Part shown: one piece after another, positions 25,083-30,240 of the stretch
Numbering within the stretch: the stretch's first letter is position 1
Layout of the letters: the number at the start of each line of letters is the position of its first letter
From: an uncultured Bacilli bacterium
GTDB taxonomy: Bacteria > Bacillota_I > Bacilli_A > RF39 > UBA660
Length of the DNA: 42,103 nucleotides
Direction: 5' to 3'
NCBI GenBank assembly: GCA_944358525.1
Contig: CALVRI010000008.1
Span: 1-42,103, forward strand
Program-made: the position numbers and the translations under genes
The notes under the pieces: model-generated
Database searches by the model: none
What the model saw: only the letters and a program-made list of their open reading frames with translations
What the model was told of the DNA's origin: nothing

Positions 25083-26075
25083 ATGGACAATAGATGCAAC
25101 AATAAAATAGATCAAATACTTGAAGAAGGAAGACGCTGTCAAGCAAAAATCGGAAATGTAGGTCCTACTGGACCGACTGGTCCTACTGGACCTGCAACAG
25201 TAGTAGTTGGAACAACGACAACCGGGGCTCCCGGAACTCCTGCCACTGTATCTAATACTGGAACAAATCAAAATGCAATATTAACATTTACTATCCCAGC
25301 AGGTGCGACTGGGGCAACAGGTGCGACTGGAGCAACTGGGGCTACAGGGCCGGCTGGCTCTACCGGTCCTACTGGACCTGCTGGTGCAACTGGGGCAACA
25401 GGTGCCACTCCTAATATTACCATAGGAACGGTTACTACTGGAGCGCCGGGTAGTCAAGCAAGTGCAAGTATAACAGGTACTACTCCAAATTTATTTTTGA
25501 ACTTAACTATTCCTGCTGGTGCTACAGGTCCTACCGGGGCTGCTAGCACAGTCTCTGGACCTACTGGACCGGCTGGTGCTACAGGGCCTACTGGGGCAAG
25601 TGGAGCCACTGGAGCTACAGGACCGACTGGACCTACTGGACCTAATGGTGCAACTGGAGCTACTGGTCCTACTGGTGCAAGCGGACCTACTGGACCAACA
25701 AGTACAGTGGCTGGACCGACTGGCCCTACTGGACCTACGGGACCTGCAAGTACTGTTACGGGGCCTACTGGACCAGCTGGTGCTACAGGGCCTACTGGGG
25801 CAAGTGGAGCTACTGGTCCTACTGGTGCAAGTGGACCTACCGGACCTACGGGACCTGATGGTGCAACAGGACCAACTGGAGCTAGTGGAGTAACTGGTCC
25901 TACTGGTGCAAGTGGACCTACCGGACCTACGGGACCTGATGGTGCAACGGGACCAACTGGAGCTAGTGGACCTACTGGACCTACTGGACCTACTGGACCT
26001 GATGGTGCGACTGGAGCTACAGGACCTACTGGACCTACTGGACCAACTGGAGCAACAGGACCTACTGGACCATAA
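25083..26075 (+). CDS. Collagen-like repeat protein (Gly-X-Thr/Pro), no C-terminal globular domain
   Basis: In this 330-residue protein residues 1-23 are a charged head ([20 protein letters not shown]), with two Cys but no signal peptide. Then Gly-Pro-Thr / Gly-Ala-Thr triplets make up most of the rest. Two non-collagen inserts (about 38-70 and 107-142), each with TTGAPG and ending in TIPAGATG, interrupt the triplets and look like repeats of one beta-rich module. It resembles BclA-type exosporium or surface filaments of Bacillus/Clostridium, but it ends inside the triplets (GPTGP, stop) without the usual trimerisation domain. The coding DNA is far more GC-rich than its neighbours and is internally repetitive, so copy number may vary. 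How it leaves the cell is unclear. Confidence 0.9.
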
Positions 26076-26084
26076 TAATAAAAG

Positions 26085-26157
26085 TAGACTTAAATGATAT
26101 GAACCCCATTTCTTTTTCTAAGAAACAGAGTTCAATTCATAAAAGTCTATTTTTTTT
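26085..26157. terminator. Long imperfect hairpin terminator after the collagen-like gene
   Basis: TAGACTT (26085-26091) pairs with AAGTCTA (26143-26149). Inside it ATGA..TGAAC pairs with GTTCA..TTCAT, and ATTTCTT with AAGAAA. T8 follows on the plus strand. The stop codon of the converging yqeY gene lies at the base of the stem. Confidence 0.7.
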
Positions 26158-26590
26158 CAATCTTATTTTTGACTATTTTACTAACTAAGCCCATGTCAGC
26201 TTTTCCACTGACTTGTGGTTTTAATTCTTTCATCACTTTGCCCATATCTTTAGATGATTCTGGTTTTACCTTATTAAAAACTGCATCAATAATCTCAGTT
26301 ATTTCTTCTTCGGTTAATTGTTTTGGTAAGTATTCAGATAAAATGTTAATTTCATTTTGAGTTTTTTGAATTAAATCTTCTCTACCACCTTTTTTAAACT
26401 CATTAATTGAATCTTTTCGAGATTTTATCTCTTTAGAAATCACTTCAATTACTTCTTCATCAGATAATTCATGTTTTTTGTTCAGCTCACTCATTTGAAT
26501 GGAACCTTTAACCATTCTAATTACTGCTAGTCTTTCTTTATCTTGATTTTTCATAGCTGTTTTTAAATCTTCTAAGATTTGATTACGCAT
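26147..26590 (-). CDS. yqeY: GatB/YqeY domain protein
   Basis: This 147-residue protein of the YqeY family resembles the tRNA-binding tail of the GatB amidotransferase subunit. It shows the characteristic RNQILEDLKTAMKNQDKERL start, EEVIEVISKEIKSRKDSI middle and GKADMGLVSKIVK end. The cellular role is not settled. It normally lies directly after rpsU, as in Bacillus. Here a decayed IS derivative (26607-26844) separates the two, and the element's right end lies only about 4 bp upstream of its AGGAGGGTAAAAT ribosome site. Any ancestral promoter or read-through from rpsU has therefore been altered. Confidence 0.9.
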   Translation of the reverse strand: MRNQILEDLKTAMKNQDKERLAVIRMVKGSIQMSELNKKHELSDEEVIEVISKEIKSRKDSINEFKKGGREDLIQKTQNEINILSEYLPKQLTEEEITEIIDAVFNKVKPESSKDMGKVMKELKPQVSGKADMGLVSKIVKNKIEKK

Positions 26591-26606: not shown

Positions 26607-26844
26607 GAACAAAATAAATTGTTCTATTCCTTTCATATATTTTTTTAAACTTTTAAACATTATATTAACTGCCACATTATATGCATTTTTACTTTTGGGT
26701 GCTAACTTATATTCTTTTATCTTATCATTTTAGTATTTGCATAGCATCACTCTCTATCATTGCTATAACAACTATAACACCTGTATGTGTTATAGTAAAT
26801 GATTTTTTGCAAATGTTTATCTTTTACAAGGTAAATTCCTAGTA
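26607..26844 (-). mobile_element. 238-bp decayed tnpB element with internal deletion
   Basis: The left end TACTAGGAATTT, the leader and the ATG of tnpB (26742-26740) match the copy at 1-137. The frame reads M-Q-I-L-K and then TGA. A few dozen bases later comes a stretch equal to the last ~25 codons of tnpB (NVAVNIMFKSLKKYMKG, compare [17 protein letters not shown] at 41938-42103). Then only the terminal right-end bases AATTTATTTTGTTC remain. The middle of tnpB and the omega-RNA region are gone. A subterminal palindrome CTATAACAC/GTGTTATAG sits at 26772-26795. It splits the rpsU-yqeY pair and cannot encode a protein, though it could still be moved in trans. Confidence 0.8.
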
Positions 26845-26848
26845 TATG

Positions 26849-26870
26849 AAAAAAGCCATGTATAATAGCT
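26849..26870 (-). terminator. Terminator after rpsU
   Basis: The stem AGCTAT/ATGGCT with a 5-nt loop is followed by TTTTTT on the minus strand, 4 bp after the rpsU stop. The IS-derived element starts about 5 bp beyond the T-tract. Confidence 0.75.
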
Positions 26871-26873
26871 TTA

Positions 26874-27077
26874 TTAATATCCGCGATTTTCACGTCTATT
26901 TCGACGACGAGTGTTTTTAATGCCTTCTTTTTTAGCATTTCTTCTTCTAACTCCTGGTTTTAAGTAACCGTCTTGCTTTTCTCTTAATTGTGCTAGGGAG
27001 CCATCTTTACTATTAGCAACTTTTAGGTTTCTAAGAGCACCATCAACATTGCCGTTTCTAACTACTACTTTTGTCAT
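26874..27077 (-). CDS. rpsU: 30S ribosomal protein S21
   Basis: This 67-residue, strongly basic protein starts TKVVVRNGNVDGALRN and ends in an arginine-rich tail (NTRRRNRRENRGY). The ATG at 27077 has GGGAGGGATTTTT upstream; an ATG at 27134 lies inside the promoter and is rejected. The tail is a little longer than the Bacillus protein. It is transcribed from a strong promoter (27106-27134) just outside a 163-bp tnpB-less element. Confidence 0.95.
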   Translation of the reverse strand: MTKVVVRNGNVDGALRNLKVANSKDGSLAQLREKQDGYLKPGVRRRNAKKEGIKNTRRRNRRENRGY

Positions 27078-27134: not shown

Positions 27135-27142
27135 GGCTAAAA

Positions 27143-27305
27143 GAACAAAATGTCGAAATAAATTTTGGCATTAGCTTACCTCACGATAAACTTTTTCTAC
27201 TTAAATGGGATCTAAGGTCCCTCCATAGGTCAGTATTGGATAGTCGATACCCTAATTTATATATTGTTTGTAAAAATTTACCTTTTGCAAAGCAAATTCC
27301 TAGTA
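27143..27305 (-). mobile_element. 163-bp tnpB-less element carrying an omega-RNA-like right end
   Basis: Left end TACTAGGAATTTGCTTTG (27305 downwards) is joined after about 26 bp to a sequence matching what follows the tnpB stop at 41938. It continues through the whole right-end region to TTTTGTTC at 27143. tnpB is exactly missing. The right-end part aligns over about 115 nt with 41795-41937 and keeps the hairpin GTTTATC-GTGA-GGTAAGC (GCTTGCC-GTGA-GGTAAGC in the other copy). The substitutions keep every pair. This is the position and form of the omega/re-RNA of IS605-type elements. It lies between the bacteriocin-like genes' terminator and the rpsU promoter. Confidence 0.75.
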
Positions 27306-27310
27306 TATAA

Positions 27311-27333
27311 GAAAAAGTAAGCTTTTGCTTACT
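27311..27333 (-). terminator. Terminator of the bacteriocin-like operon
   Basis: The 7-bp stem AGTAAGC/GCTTACT with loop AAAA is followed by TTTTT on the minus strand. The stop codon of the second peptide lies in the stem. The tnpB-less element begins about 6 bp further on. Confidence 0.88.
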
Positions 27334-27493
27334 CTATACTGCAGGTTTGACCGGATGTTATTCTTCTAAATGATGAACCAAGGCTTTTTCCAAGTTCAAT
27401 TAATAAACTTAATCCTTTGACAATGGCATTAATGAAAGTGGCAGTTATACTTCCACCACAAACTTTTTTCAGTTCACTATCTTTTAAAATCAT
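27329..27493 (-). CDS. Double-glycine-leader peptide 2 (bacteriocin-like)
   Basis: This 54-residue peptide has a 14-residue leader MILKDSELKKVCGG of double-glycine type (E-L-x-x-V-x-G-G), the site cut by C39 peptidases. The mature 40-residue part begins SITATFINAIVKGL and contains a GKSLG (GxxxG) motif, then a basic RR pair and one Cys near the end. That is the profile of a helix-forming class II bacteriocin or signalling peptide. The start ATG overlaps the stop of peptide 1 (ATGA), so the two are translationally coupled, as two-peptide bacteriocins usually are. I do not recognise a named relative. Confidence 0.8.
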   Translation of the reverse strand: MILKDSELKKVCGGSITATFINAIVKGLSLLIELGKSLGSSFRRITSGQTCSIE

Positions 27494-27624
27494 TTACCAC
27501 ACTCTATTGGATTTATAAAGCCTTCTATAGCACTTATTAGAAACGTTATGAAGCCTCCTATGGCTGCCCATAATCCATAACCTCCACCATTTACCCGCAT
27601 TAATTCATTATTTGTTAAATACAT
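27490..27624 (-). CDS. Double-glycine-leader peptide 1 (bacteriocin-like)
   Basis: This 44-residue peptide has leader MYLTNNELMRVNGG ending in the double glycine (E-L-x-x-V-x-G-G). The mature part is GYGLWAAIGGFITFLISAIE followed by a short tail with one Cys (ECGK). It is hydrophobic and glycine-rich, like membrane-active class II bacteriocins. AAAGGGG precedes the ATG by 5 nt. It starts 11 bp after the stop of the C39 transporter gene and overlaps peptide 2 by four bases. TGA is its stop; under a UGA=Trp code it would gain only two residues. Confidence 0.8.
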   Translation of the reverse strand: MYLTNNELMRVNGGGYGLWAAIGGFITFLISAIEGFINPIECGK

Positions 27625-27635
27625 GATACCCCTTT

Positions 27636-29648
27636 CTAGTTATTACGTTTAGTATCTACAACCACTTTTCCTTTTTGCATTTTAATATATTGATTAAATA
27701 AATCTAAGTTGTCTAGCCTATGTGAAATATAAATTATTGTTTTGTTTGAATAGTTATTAAACAGATTTTTTAGTATTCTCCTTTCCATGTCTATACTTAC
27801 TTGGTTTAATCCCTCATCAATAATTAAAATGTCAAAGTTGTTTAATGCACGAGCTAATACAATACGTTGTTTTTGTCCTCCTGATAGATTAAAACCATCT
27901 TCTTCTATTAATTCGTTATGATCGCCTTTAGAAAACTTATCTATTTCACATATTTTTATATTCTTGAGATTTTCTGATTTTAAATTTAAATTATCTTTTA
28001 AGGTTCCTGTAAATAATATTTCTTTTTGTGAAACATAAATAATATTATCAAAATAATTTTTATTTATTTCATTATTTTCTATTTTAACACTACCCTCATA
28101 ATCATTATAATAGCCTTTAATTATTTTAAATAGTGTTGATTTGCCGCTTCCACTATTTCCAGTAACCATAACTTTACTTTTGCTTTTTATAGTTAGATTT
28201 ATGTCTTTTAAAACGTAATCTTTTTTATTATAGGAGTAATTTAAATTTTTAATAACTATATCGCCACATGTTTTTAAGGTATTTATGTTTTCTGATTTTT
28301 TTGTTATTAATTCGATTATATTAATTAAGGCTGATTTTACTTCATTTATTTGGTAGTTAAAATCTAAAATATTTTTTATCGAAGATATAAGAAAGCTAGA
28401 TAAAATAAACAAAATTACAAAAAATTTTAAATCATTACTAATTTTAAAAATTGTTATAGCAATTAATAAAATACCTAAATCGTTAATTATATTTTTTAAA
28501 AACTCAGAATTAGTTTCATACGTAAAAACTTTTTGAGTGATTTTTAAGAAATTTTGATATTTTTCTTTAAAGATTCCTTGCACCTTATCAATTATATTCA
28601 AGTTTTTTATTGTTTCAAACCCTATAATATTTTCGGTAATATATGAATTTATTATAGCTTTATGTCTGATACTTTCGCTTATCCAAATATTTTGCTTTTT
28701 TTGATAGGTTAATGTTGTTATAAAAACAAGGAGAATAATTGCTATAGTTATTATGAAGATAAAAATATTAATTTTTAAAATAGATATTATAAGAAGCAAT
28801 ATTAAAGGTAATTCGATGAGCGATATCTGAGTAAAATTGCTTATAGCATTTCTAATTGTATAAAGATCATTAAAATAGCTAGTGATTTCTCCAGTGGTTT
28901 TCCTTCGGTAATAACGATAAGGAAGGTTTAATATTTTGGTAAAAATATCCACTTGAAGTTCTTGATTTAAGTCCAAATTAAGTTTTGTCAGAAGTCTATT
29001 TTTTATGAATGAAAGAATATTTTTTATACTAAAGATGAACAGAAATAATAAAAATACGGTATAAATTTTTTCTTGATCATCTAATAATGAAATAAGTAAA
29101 GGAAAAAACATAGAAGAAGAAACTGTTAATAAACTTATGAATATAGAAAGTATTTGTATAACAACAACCAGTTTTAAATGTTTTTTTATATAATACCAGA
29201 TAAATTTTAGAGTTTTGGGCTTTGGTTCATAAACTATATGGGTGGCTGGATACATATGAATAGTAACACCGCTCCATATTTGTTGGAACTCATTAAAAGA
29301 AAGTTTTTTTAATCCAGTTGAGGGATCAGCTATCAGCATGGTTTTTCTTTTTAAATTAACTTTGTATATAACTACATAATGTTTGTAGGAGTGTTTTATT
29401 ATTACATGTGCTATACAAGGTAATTTTAATTCATCTATATTTTCTGATTTGAATCCATAACTATTAAATCCTAATTCTTTTAGTGTTTCTTTTAAATTAT
29501 AGGCGGTAGTACCATTTTGTGTTGTATTCATCATTTCACTTAGCTTGTCCAAACTAACATATCCTTGATAGTACATTAATATCATTTGAACACAAGCTGG
29601 AGCACAATCTTTTAAACCACGTTGTTTAACAAATGGATATTTTTTGAT
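27636..29648 (-). CDS. C39-peptidase-containing ABC transporter (bacteriocin/peptide processing, PCAT), apparent AUC start
   Basis: From 29648 the protein has about 670 residues, normal for a PCAT that cuts double-glycine leaders and exports the core peptide. The C39 domain has the catalytic Cys15 in GLKDCAPAC, His in HYVVIY and Asp in IADPSTG. Five to six transmembrane helices follow (about 150-410). The ATPase has VTGNSGSGKST, SQKEILFTG, LSGGQKQRIVLA, ILIIDEG and YISHR, all intact. The first ATG (29585) lies after the catalytic Cys, so it cannot be the functional start. The frame is open to GGGAGGTGA, and the codon aligned with the usual M-K-K-Y-P start is ATC, 7 nt after GGAGG. No ATG, GTG or TTG is available there. 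It is first in an operon with the two peptides; no immunity gene was found. Confidence 0.85.
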   Translation of the reverse strand: MKKYPFVKQRGLKDCAPACVQMILMYYQGYVSLDKLSEMMNTTQNGTTAYNLKETLKELGFNSYGFKSENIDELKLPCIAHVIIKHSYKHYVVIYKVNLKRKTMLIADPSTGLKKLSFNEFQQIWSGVTIHMYPATHIVYEPKPKTLKFIWYYIKKHLKLVVVIQILSIFISLLTVSSSMFFPLLISLLDDQEKIYTVFLLFLFIFSIKNILSFIKNRLLTKLNLDLNQELQVDIFTKILNLPYRYYRRKTTGEITSYFNDLYTIRNAISNFTQISLIELPLILLLIISILKINIFIFIITIAIILLVFITTLTYQKKQNIWISESIRHKAIINSYITENIIGFETIKNLNIIDKVQGIFKEKYQNFLKITQKVFTYETNSEFLKNIINDLGILLIAITIFKISNDLKFFVILFILSSFLISSIKNILDFNYQINEVKSALINIIELITKKSENINTLKTCGDIVIKNLNYSYNKKDYVLKDINLTIKSKSKVMVTGNSGSGKSTLFKIIKGYYNDYEGSVKIENNEINKNYFDNIIYVSQKEILFTGTLKDNLNLKSENLKNIKICEIDKFSKGDHNELIEEDGFNLSGGQKQRIVLARALNNFDILIIDEGLNQVSIDMERRILKNLFNNYSNKTIIYISHRLDNLDLFNQYIKMQKGKVVVDTKRNN

Positions 29649-29718
29649 TATTTCACCTCCCTCATATATTTATATACGACGTTTAATGGCAGATTCCTTT
29701 TAAAAAAACAAAAAAAAG

Positions 29719-30240
29719 TTATTTTTCGAAAATTTTTATTTTTTTCGGTCCATAACTTTTTTCTTTTATTAGTTTTAAGTTGGTTTTAGGTTCTCCTATT
29801 TCATATTCACAAATGACAATTCCACCATTATTTAACAATTTTCTTTCTTCAATTATTCTCAAAGATTTATCTAATTGATTTTCCTTATATGGTGGATCTA
29901 GAAAAATTATGTCAAATGTTTCATCAGTTGTTTTTAAAAATTTTTTATAATCAATTTTTAAAATTTTTAAATTTTCATCAATATTTTGGCTATTGTCTTT
30001 GATAGTTTGAATAGCCATTTGATTATTATCAATTAAGTAACATTTTTTAGCCCCATTACTTATAGCTTCTAAACCTAAAGCTCCACTTCCAGCAAATAAG
30101 TCTAAAACTATACTACCAGGTATATAGGTTTGAATCATTCCAAATAAAGATTCTTTCACTCTATCCATAGTGGGCCTAGTACCTTCAATATTAAATCCTT
30201 TTAATTTTTTTCCTTTATATTTACCGCTAATAATACGCAT
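29719..30240 (-). CDS. rsmD: 16S rRNA (guanine-966-N2)-methyltransferase RsmD
   Basis: This 173-residue SAM-dependent methyltransferase (YlbH in Bacillus) has MRIISGKYKGKKL at the start, RPTMDRVKESLFGM, the SAM loop VLDLFAGSGALGLEA and catalytic LDPPY. It sits after ylbD-ylbE with the same order as in Bacillus, where coaD usually follows. Here the next gene downstream is the unrelated peptide transporter, so synteny breaks at this point. Confidence 0.94.
   Translation of the reverse strand: MRIISGKYKGKKLKGFNIEGTRPTMDRVKESLFGMIQTYIPGSIVLDLFAGSGALGLEAISNGAKKCYLIDNNQMAIQTIKDNSQNIDENLKILKIDYKKFLKTTDETFDIIFLDPPYKENQLDKSLRIIEERKLLNNGGIVICEYEIGEPKTNLKLIKEKSYGPKKIKIFEK

Follow-up and report, generated by a model that had tools for sequence, protein, structure and literature searches.

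The window, by which we mean the whole 42,103-nucleotide stretch of DNA that was analysed, carries on its minus strand a three-gene operon encoding an ABC transporter and two very small peptides, here called P1 and P2 (Table 1). The transporter combines a C39 peptidase, an ABC membrane domain and an ATPase domain (Pfam) and is followed after 11 bp by the P1 gene, which in turn overlaps the P2 gene by 4 nt in the motif ATGA (27490-27493). Both precursors begin with a 14-residue leader of the double-glycine type, and each mature part holds a single cysteine. A first-pass annotation had described these features from the sequence, and its frames, overlap, leaders, spacing, C39 transporter and single cysteines were all verified, as was the terminator at the end of the operon, a hairpin that overlaps the P2 stop. 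It had also assigned a GxxxG motif to one of the mature peptides; this is correct for P2 (GKSLG), whereas mature P1 of the window has no strict motif of this kind and the P1 of relatives does. The downstream "IS lacking tnpB", by contrast, is a dispersed repeat. It spans about 190 bp and is matched, in full or in part, 27 times in the genome; a 53-nt module of it also occurs after rpsU (26802-26854). The region consists mostly of minus-strand housekeeping genes, and among its few plus-strand genes is one for a collagen-like protein with GXT repeats (330 aa, 25083-26075). No regulator gene lies beside the operon, and an Rfam scan of the window from 20 to 36 kb gave no match. An AlphaFold model of P2 consists of one helix (residues 5-46, pLDDT 70) and adds nothing beyond the sequence. 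The metagenome-assembled genome (MAG) from which the window comes is 1.3 Mb in size and 80% complete, and its single C39 domain is that of the operon's transporter.

Table 1. Features of the operon and its surroundings in the window.
Feature	Position	Strand	Evidence or remark
C39 peptidase-containing ABC transporter, 671 aa	27636..29651	-	PF03412 E 1.6e-33, PF00664 1.2e-18, PF00005 9.9e-23
P1 precursor, 44 aa	27490..27624	-	homologues at the same place in 119/122 loci
P1 leader MYLTNNELMRVNGG	27583-27624	-	
P1 mature part GYGLWAAIGGFITFLISAIEGFINPIECGK	27493-27582	-	
P2 precursor, 54 aa	27329..27493	-	homologues in 266/291 family genomes
P2 leader MILKDSELKKVCGG	27452-27493	-	
P2 mature part SITATFINAIVKGLSLLIELGKSLGSSFRRITSGQTCSIE	27332-27451	-	
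Terminator-like hairpin, 9 bp stem and T-rich tail, at P2 stop; closes operon	27314..27335	-	
Ribosome-binding site GGGAGGTGA, then near-cognate start ATA	29649..29660	-	
Dispersed repeat 3' of operon, MITE-like, no ORF	27140..27330	-	27 matches in own genome
rsmD, upstream neighbour	29719..30240	-	PF03602 E 1.4e-54; same neighbour in many relatives
rpsU (S21), downstream neighbour, conserved in relatives	26874..27062	-	
yqeY, after rpsU	26147-26590		PF09424

From the upstream stop to the catalytic Cys, the transporter frame is free of ATG, GTG and TTG codons. GGGAGGTGA precedes the codons ATA ATC, and the start must be either ATA at 29651 or ATC at 29648; initiation at the first ATG further along the frame (29585) would cost the protein its catalytic Cys. 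In relatives of the same genus, ATG stands at the position of the window's ATA. By a strict test, a canonical start is missing from 9/108 transporter genes of the family as opposed to 0/69 rsmD and yqeY genes (p 0.013), a comparison that excludes rpsU, P1 and P2 because their anchors lie mostly in the ribosome-binding site. Near-cognate transporter starts (ATA, ATT or ACG), correctly spaced from a strong ribosome-binding site, are found in the window and in loci L088, L015, L024, L101, L077, L109, L150 and L081. Such a start may act as a translational brake, or the missing canonical starts may be sequence errors in single MAGs. Since the start codon is non-canonical, expression in the window's strain is uncertain.

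Relatives of the peptides were found throughout the family to which the window belongs, a family that may lie within RF39 of GTDB. A P2 profile matched 266/291 genomes of this family, covering 144/150 genera, and 195 of its 206 well-assembled genomes; an order-wide draw of genomes consisted of members of this family only. In a class-wide draw, P2 was found in 51/54 family genomes, and the 341 genomes of other families in that draw gave no convincing P2, with one marginal match confined to the leader part. P1 gave a like result, 49/53 in the family and nothing convincing outside it. Where relatives occur in named records, these are MAGs with labels such as Bacilli, Mollicutes and Tenericutes. 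The C39 domain, mostly in one copy per genome, is present in 275/291 family genomes and closely tracks P2: 266 genomes have both, none has P2 without C39, nine have C39 without P2 and 16 have neither (Fisher p 2e-20), with five of the P2-negative genomes scored as such from their absence in the P2 match list. The figure of nine is an upper bound, because one of these genomes (G152) has diverged P1 and P2 behind its transporter and in another (G242) the transporter lies at a contig end. Some of the 16 genomes with neither are 93-96% complete, and the operon is thus not essential. The viral contigs scanned held no relative and the plasmids searched no P1; cargo of a mobile element was considered as an explanation and dropped, given that the operon occupies a fixed core site. 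The operon is a core, vertically placed trait conserved in one bacterial family.

In a set of 122 non-redundant loci, the gene order at this core site is rsmD - transporter - [X] - P1 - P2 - [P3] - rpsU - yqeY, where brackets mark genes of variable presence and the flanking rsmD and rpsU-yqeY are found often but not always. P1 lies directly 5' of P2 in 119/122 loci. The first-pass annotation had suggested looking for linkage of transporter and peptides in relatives, and both frames are indeed kept, in order, behind the transporter; the two outcomes that it had named as speaking against its reading, leaders that are not conserved and disrupted frames beside an intact transporter, were not seen. 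In one locus (L165 of genome G045, minus strand, between 1881 and 2451) the pair has been duplicated as a unit, giving a tandem P1-P2-P1-P2. In another (L187 of genome G152, 1839-2569) P1 and P2 are strongly diverged and X is present, and the genome was scored P2-negative.

The two additional genes, X and P3, co-occur more often than expected by chance (p 3e-5), and a Pfam search with both gave no family for either. X lies between the transporter and P1, where it takes up roughly 400 bp, is matched by its profile in 67/122 loci, and encodes 120-150 aa predicted to form a transmembrane helix and a beta domain (model pLDDT 85). Foldseek alone gave no E < 0.05 for X, while in a comparison with the PDB the best 21 entries are all efflux membrane fusion proteins, with Z from 8.9 (BesA) to 6.7. 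As modelled, X resembles a shortened membrane-fusion-protein fold, with a membrane-proximal beta domain after the transmembrane helix; it shares these two elements with membrane fusion proteins of the BesA, Spr0693, MacA and HlyD class and differs from them in having no hairpin, no lipoyl domain and no sequence-family match. An assignment of X to TIGR01000 was rejected, with no match in the three genomes examined. P3, detected in 63/122 loci, has no double-glycine leader; its basic N-terminus and single transmembrane stretch are followed by a motif like that of mature P2 (GRxxGTxIR, often with a Cys), and hhalign aligns P2 with P3 over 30 columns (probability 93%, E 3e-7). By analogy, this makes P3 a good, if only possible, candidate for an immunity protein, as a mimic of mature P2. 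Both genes are absent from the window's genus (four loci), and nothing elsewhere in the window's genome is a credible P3, the best match (E 0.015) falling within a frame of 552 aa. The earlier statement that no immunity gene is visible holds for the window and the rest of its genome; about half of the relatives have the candidate P3.

The cysteines are nearly invariant, with a Cys in mature P1 in 119/119 loci and the C-terminal Cys of P2 in 121/122. With one Cys per mature peptide, an intramolecular bond is impossible and an intermolecular one likely, and from the sequences P1 and P2 are probably a disulfide-linked heterodimer joined through the single C-terminal Cys of each. The exceptions come in pairs: in the second pair of L165 the usual C-terminal Cys is gone from both peptides and cysteines appear at new places (...GVFCGFFGK, ...AGICETIFE...), and in G152 neither mature peptide has a Cys. 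The joint loss of the C-terminal Cys in both exceptional pairs gives p 1.4e-4 in a post hoc test on these two events only.

Estimates of dN/dS, for which related loci were compared in 13 independent pairs and the results pooled (7 pairs for P3), are 0.19 for the P1 core, about 0.25 for nearly the whole of P2, 0.32 for P3 and 0.22 for the transporter, values that are rough in absolute terms because synonymous differences are near saturation. By this measure the operon is under purifying selection (dN/dS about 0.2), and diversifying selection, which had been considered, was dropped on the same value. Between genera, the P1 core and P2 are at least as conserved as the transporter (median identity 0.42 versus 0.34).

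The first-pass annotation recognised neither peptide, and this is true of P2, which scores above the cut-off of no family model and gave weak leader-type matches only. P1 of the window, on the other hand, scores 20.9 bits against TIGR03949, just below the cut-off of 21.5, and 21/25 of its homologues match this model, which is that of the class IIb family of lactobin A and cerein 7B, at E<=0.01 (best 8e-8). Much of the match is leader, so that it speaks for a relationship to class IIb precursors but says nothing of function. A search of solved structures with the P1 and P2 profiles gave only chance-level and leader-only matches. As far as gene layout goes, the adjacent, overlapping small precursors with double-glycine leaders are arranged as in class IIb, and domain assignment and co-occurrence point to a dedicated C39 exporter of the double-glycine-cleaving type. 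The earlier description of a two-peptide bacteriocin-like operon stands with respect to the pair, its own exporter and the class IIb matches; as a bacteriocin, and as an agent of killing, the pair is putative.

The reading that we prefer, with roughly even confidence, is that of a class IIb-like, disulfide-linked two-peptide export system that most likely antagonises neighbouring cells. From what is known of its family, the C39 domain of the transporter would cut both precursors after the double glycine during export. Mature P1, predicted to be one hydrophobic helix, and mature P2, which would be hydrophobic and then form an amphipathic cationic helix with GxxxG, would act as a pair, probably covalently joined, and would insert into membranes as class IIb bacteriocins do. 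In relatives, X as a short membrane-fusion-protein domain would assist export, and P3, which carries the P2 motif on a membrane anchor, would bind P1 and so shield the producing cell. Both genes would have been lost in the genus of the window.

A simple weapon is at odds with several of the observations above, namely the core distribution, the fixed site, the purifying selection and the absence of P3 from half of the loci. These same features lend themselves to a more tentative reading, in which P1 and P2 form a housekeeping secreted membrane heterodimer retained family-wide for envelope maintenance, self-directed lysis, adhesion or host interaction, and P3 is an anchored partner and not an immunity protein. 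Near-universality in the well-assembled genomes of one family, a position beside rsmD and rpsU-yqeY, an immunity gene that is not constant, and the negative scans of viral contigs and plasmids all fit such a role, whereas the 16 genomes with neither C39 nor P2 argue against it, and the leaders, C39 exporter and class IIb model matches indicate a bacteriocin ancestry. It is possible, though we would not presume it, that such an ancestor gave rise to a family-defining pair that is no longer a weapon, a disulfide-linked secreted heterodimer in the membrane accompanied by P3 as a membrane-tethered copy of one subunit.

That the peptides are instead signals, double-glycine pheromones with a receptor elsewhere, appears unlikely. 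The pheromones ComC and BlpC do use the same leader and C39 route, and a few P1 homologues have weak ComC matches; however, against this reading stands the joint conservation of two hydrophobic peptides, each 30-40 aa long, they diverge little between genera whereas pheromones diversify, and no kinase or regulator is adjacent, the neighbours in the window being housekeeping genes when read by eye. Chance open reading frames beside an unrelated transporter have nothing but the small size of P1 and P2 in their favour, and are refuted by conservation in 144 genera, a dN/dS of about 0.2 and co-loss with C39.

In either case, a bacteriocin-like pair is a core trait of a very large clade of common uncultured gut bacteria. 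If it is a weapon, it is family-wide and has consequences for community structure; if it is not, it would be a toxin that has been domesticated for housekeeping and belongs to the core biology of uncultured gut Bacilli, in a clade spanning 150 genera. Direct, testable predictions on assembly and immunity follow from the single cysteine of each partner and from the likeness of the third protein to P2. The papers searched gave no account of the family-wide operon. Large-scale mining of class II bacteriocins from the gut exists (IIBacFinder; PMC12648078), and single precursors may therefore already be catalogued.

Accessory status, mobility and variability are the norm among bacteriocins, and the known class IIb loci are patchy and variable. 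The operon shares with the lactobin A/cerein 7B (TIGR03949) and lactococcin G (NF038034/5) types the leader, the paired peptides, GxxxG-like motifs and a neighbouring C39 exporter, and P1 is like the former by its model match. It differs in that P1 of the window does not quite reach the cut-off and P2 has no match, in the one conserved Cys of each peptide, in its core and vertical distribution, and in an immunity gene that is not constant. CibAB/CibC of pneumococcus is likewise a two-peptide double-glycine bacteriocin exported by a C39 transporter and is widespread within its species, but to our knowledge it is competence-regulated and limited to streptococci, and its exporter is encoded apart. 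Gallocin A (GllA1/GllA2) also comprises two peptides with double-glycine leaders and an ABC transporter that cleaves after the double glycine, and disulfides are important to it (PMC10100652). Immunity to gallocin A is provided by a third gene product, GIP, which has been modelled as resembling the gallocin peptides and proposed to protect by competition (PMC10100652), and enterocin DD14 offers a further example in which immunity is linked to the peptides themselves (PMC7332713). The gallocin A peptides are longer hairpins with two cysteines and one intramolecular bond each, whereas nearly all loci here have one Cys per mature peptide; unlike GIP, P3 resembles P2 at the level of sequence and is missing from many loci. 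We know of no comparable family-wide core status for gallocin. By analogy with GIP, P3 would nonetheless fit a protective role of the same kind.
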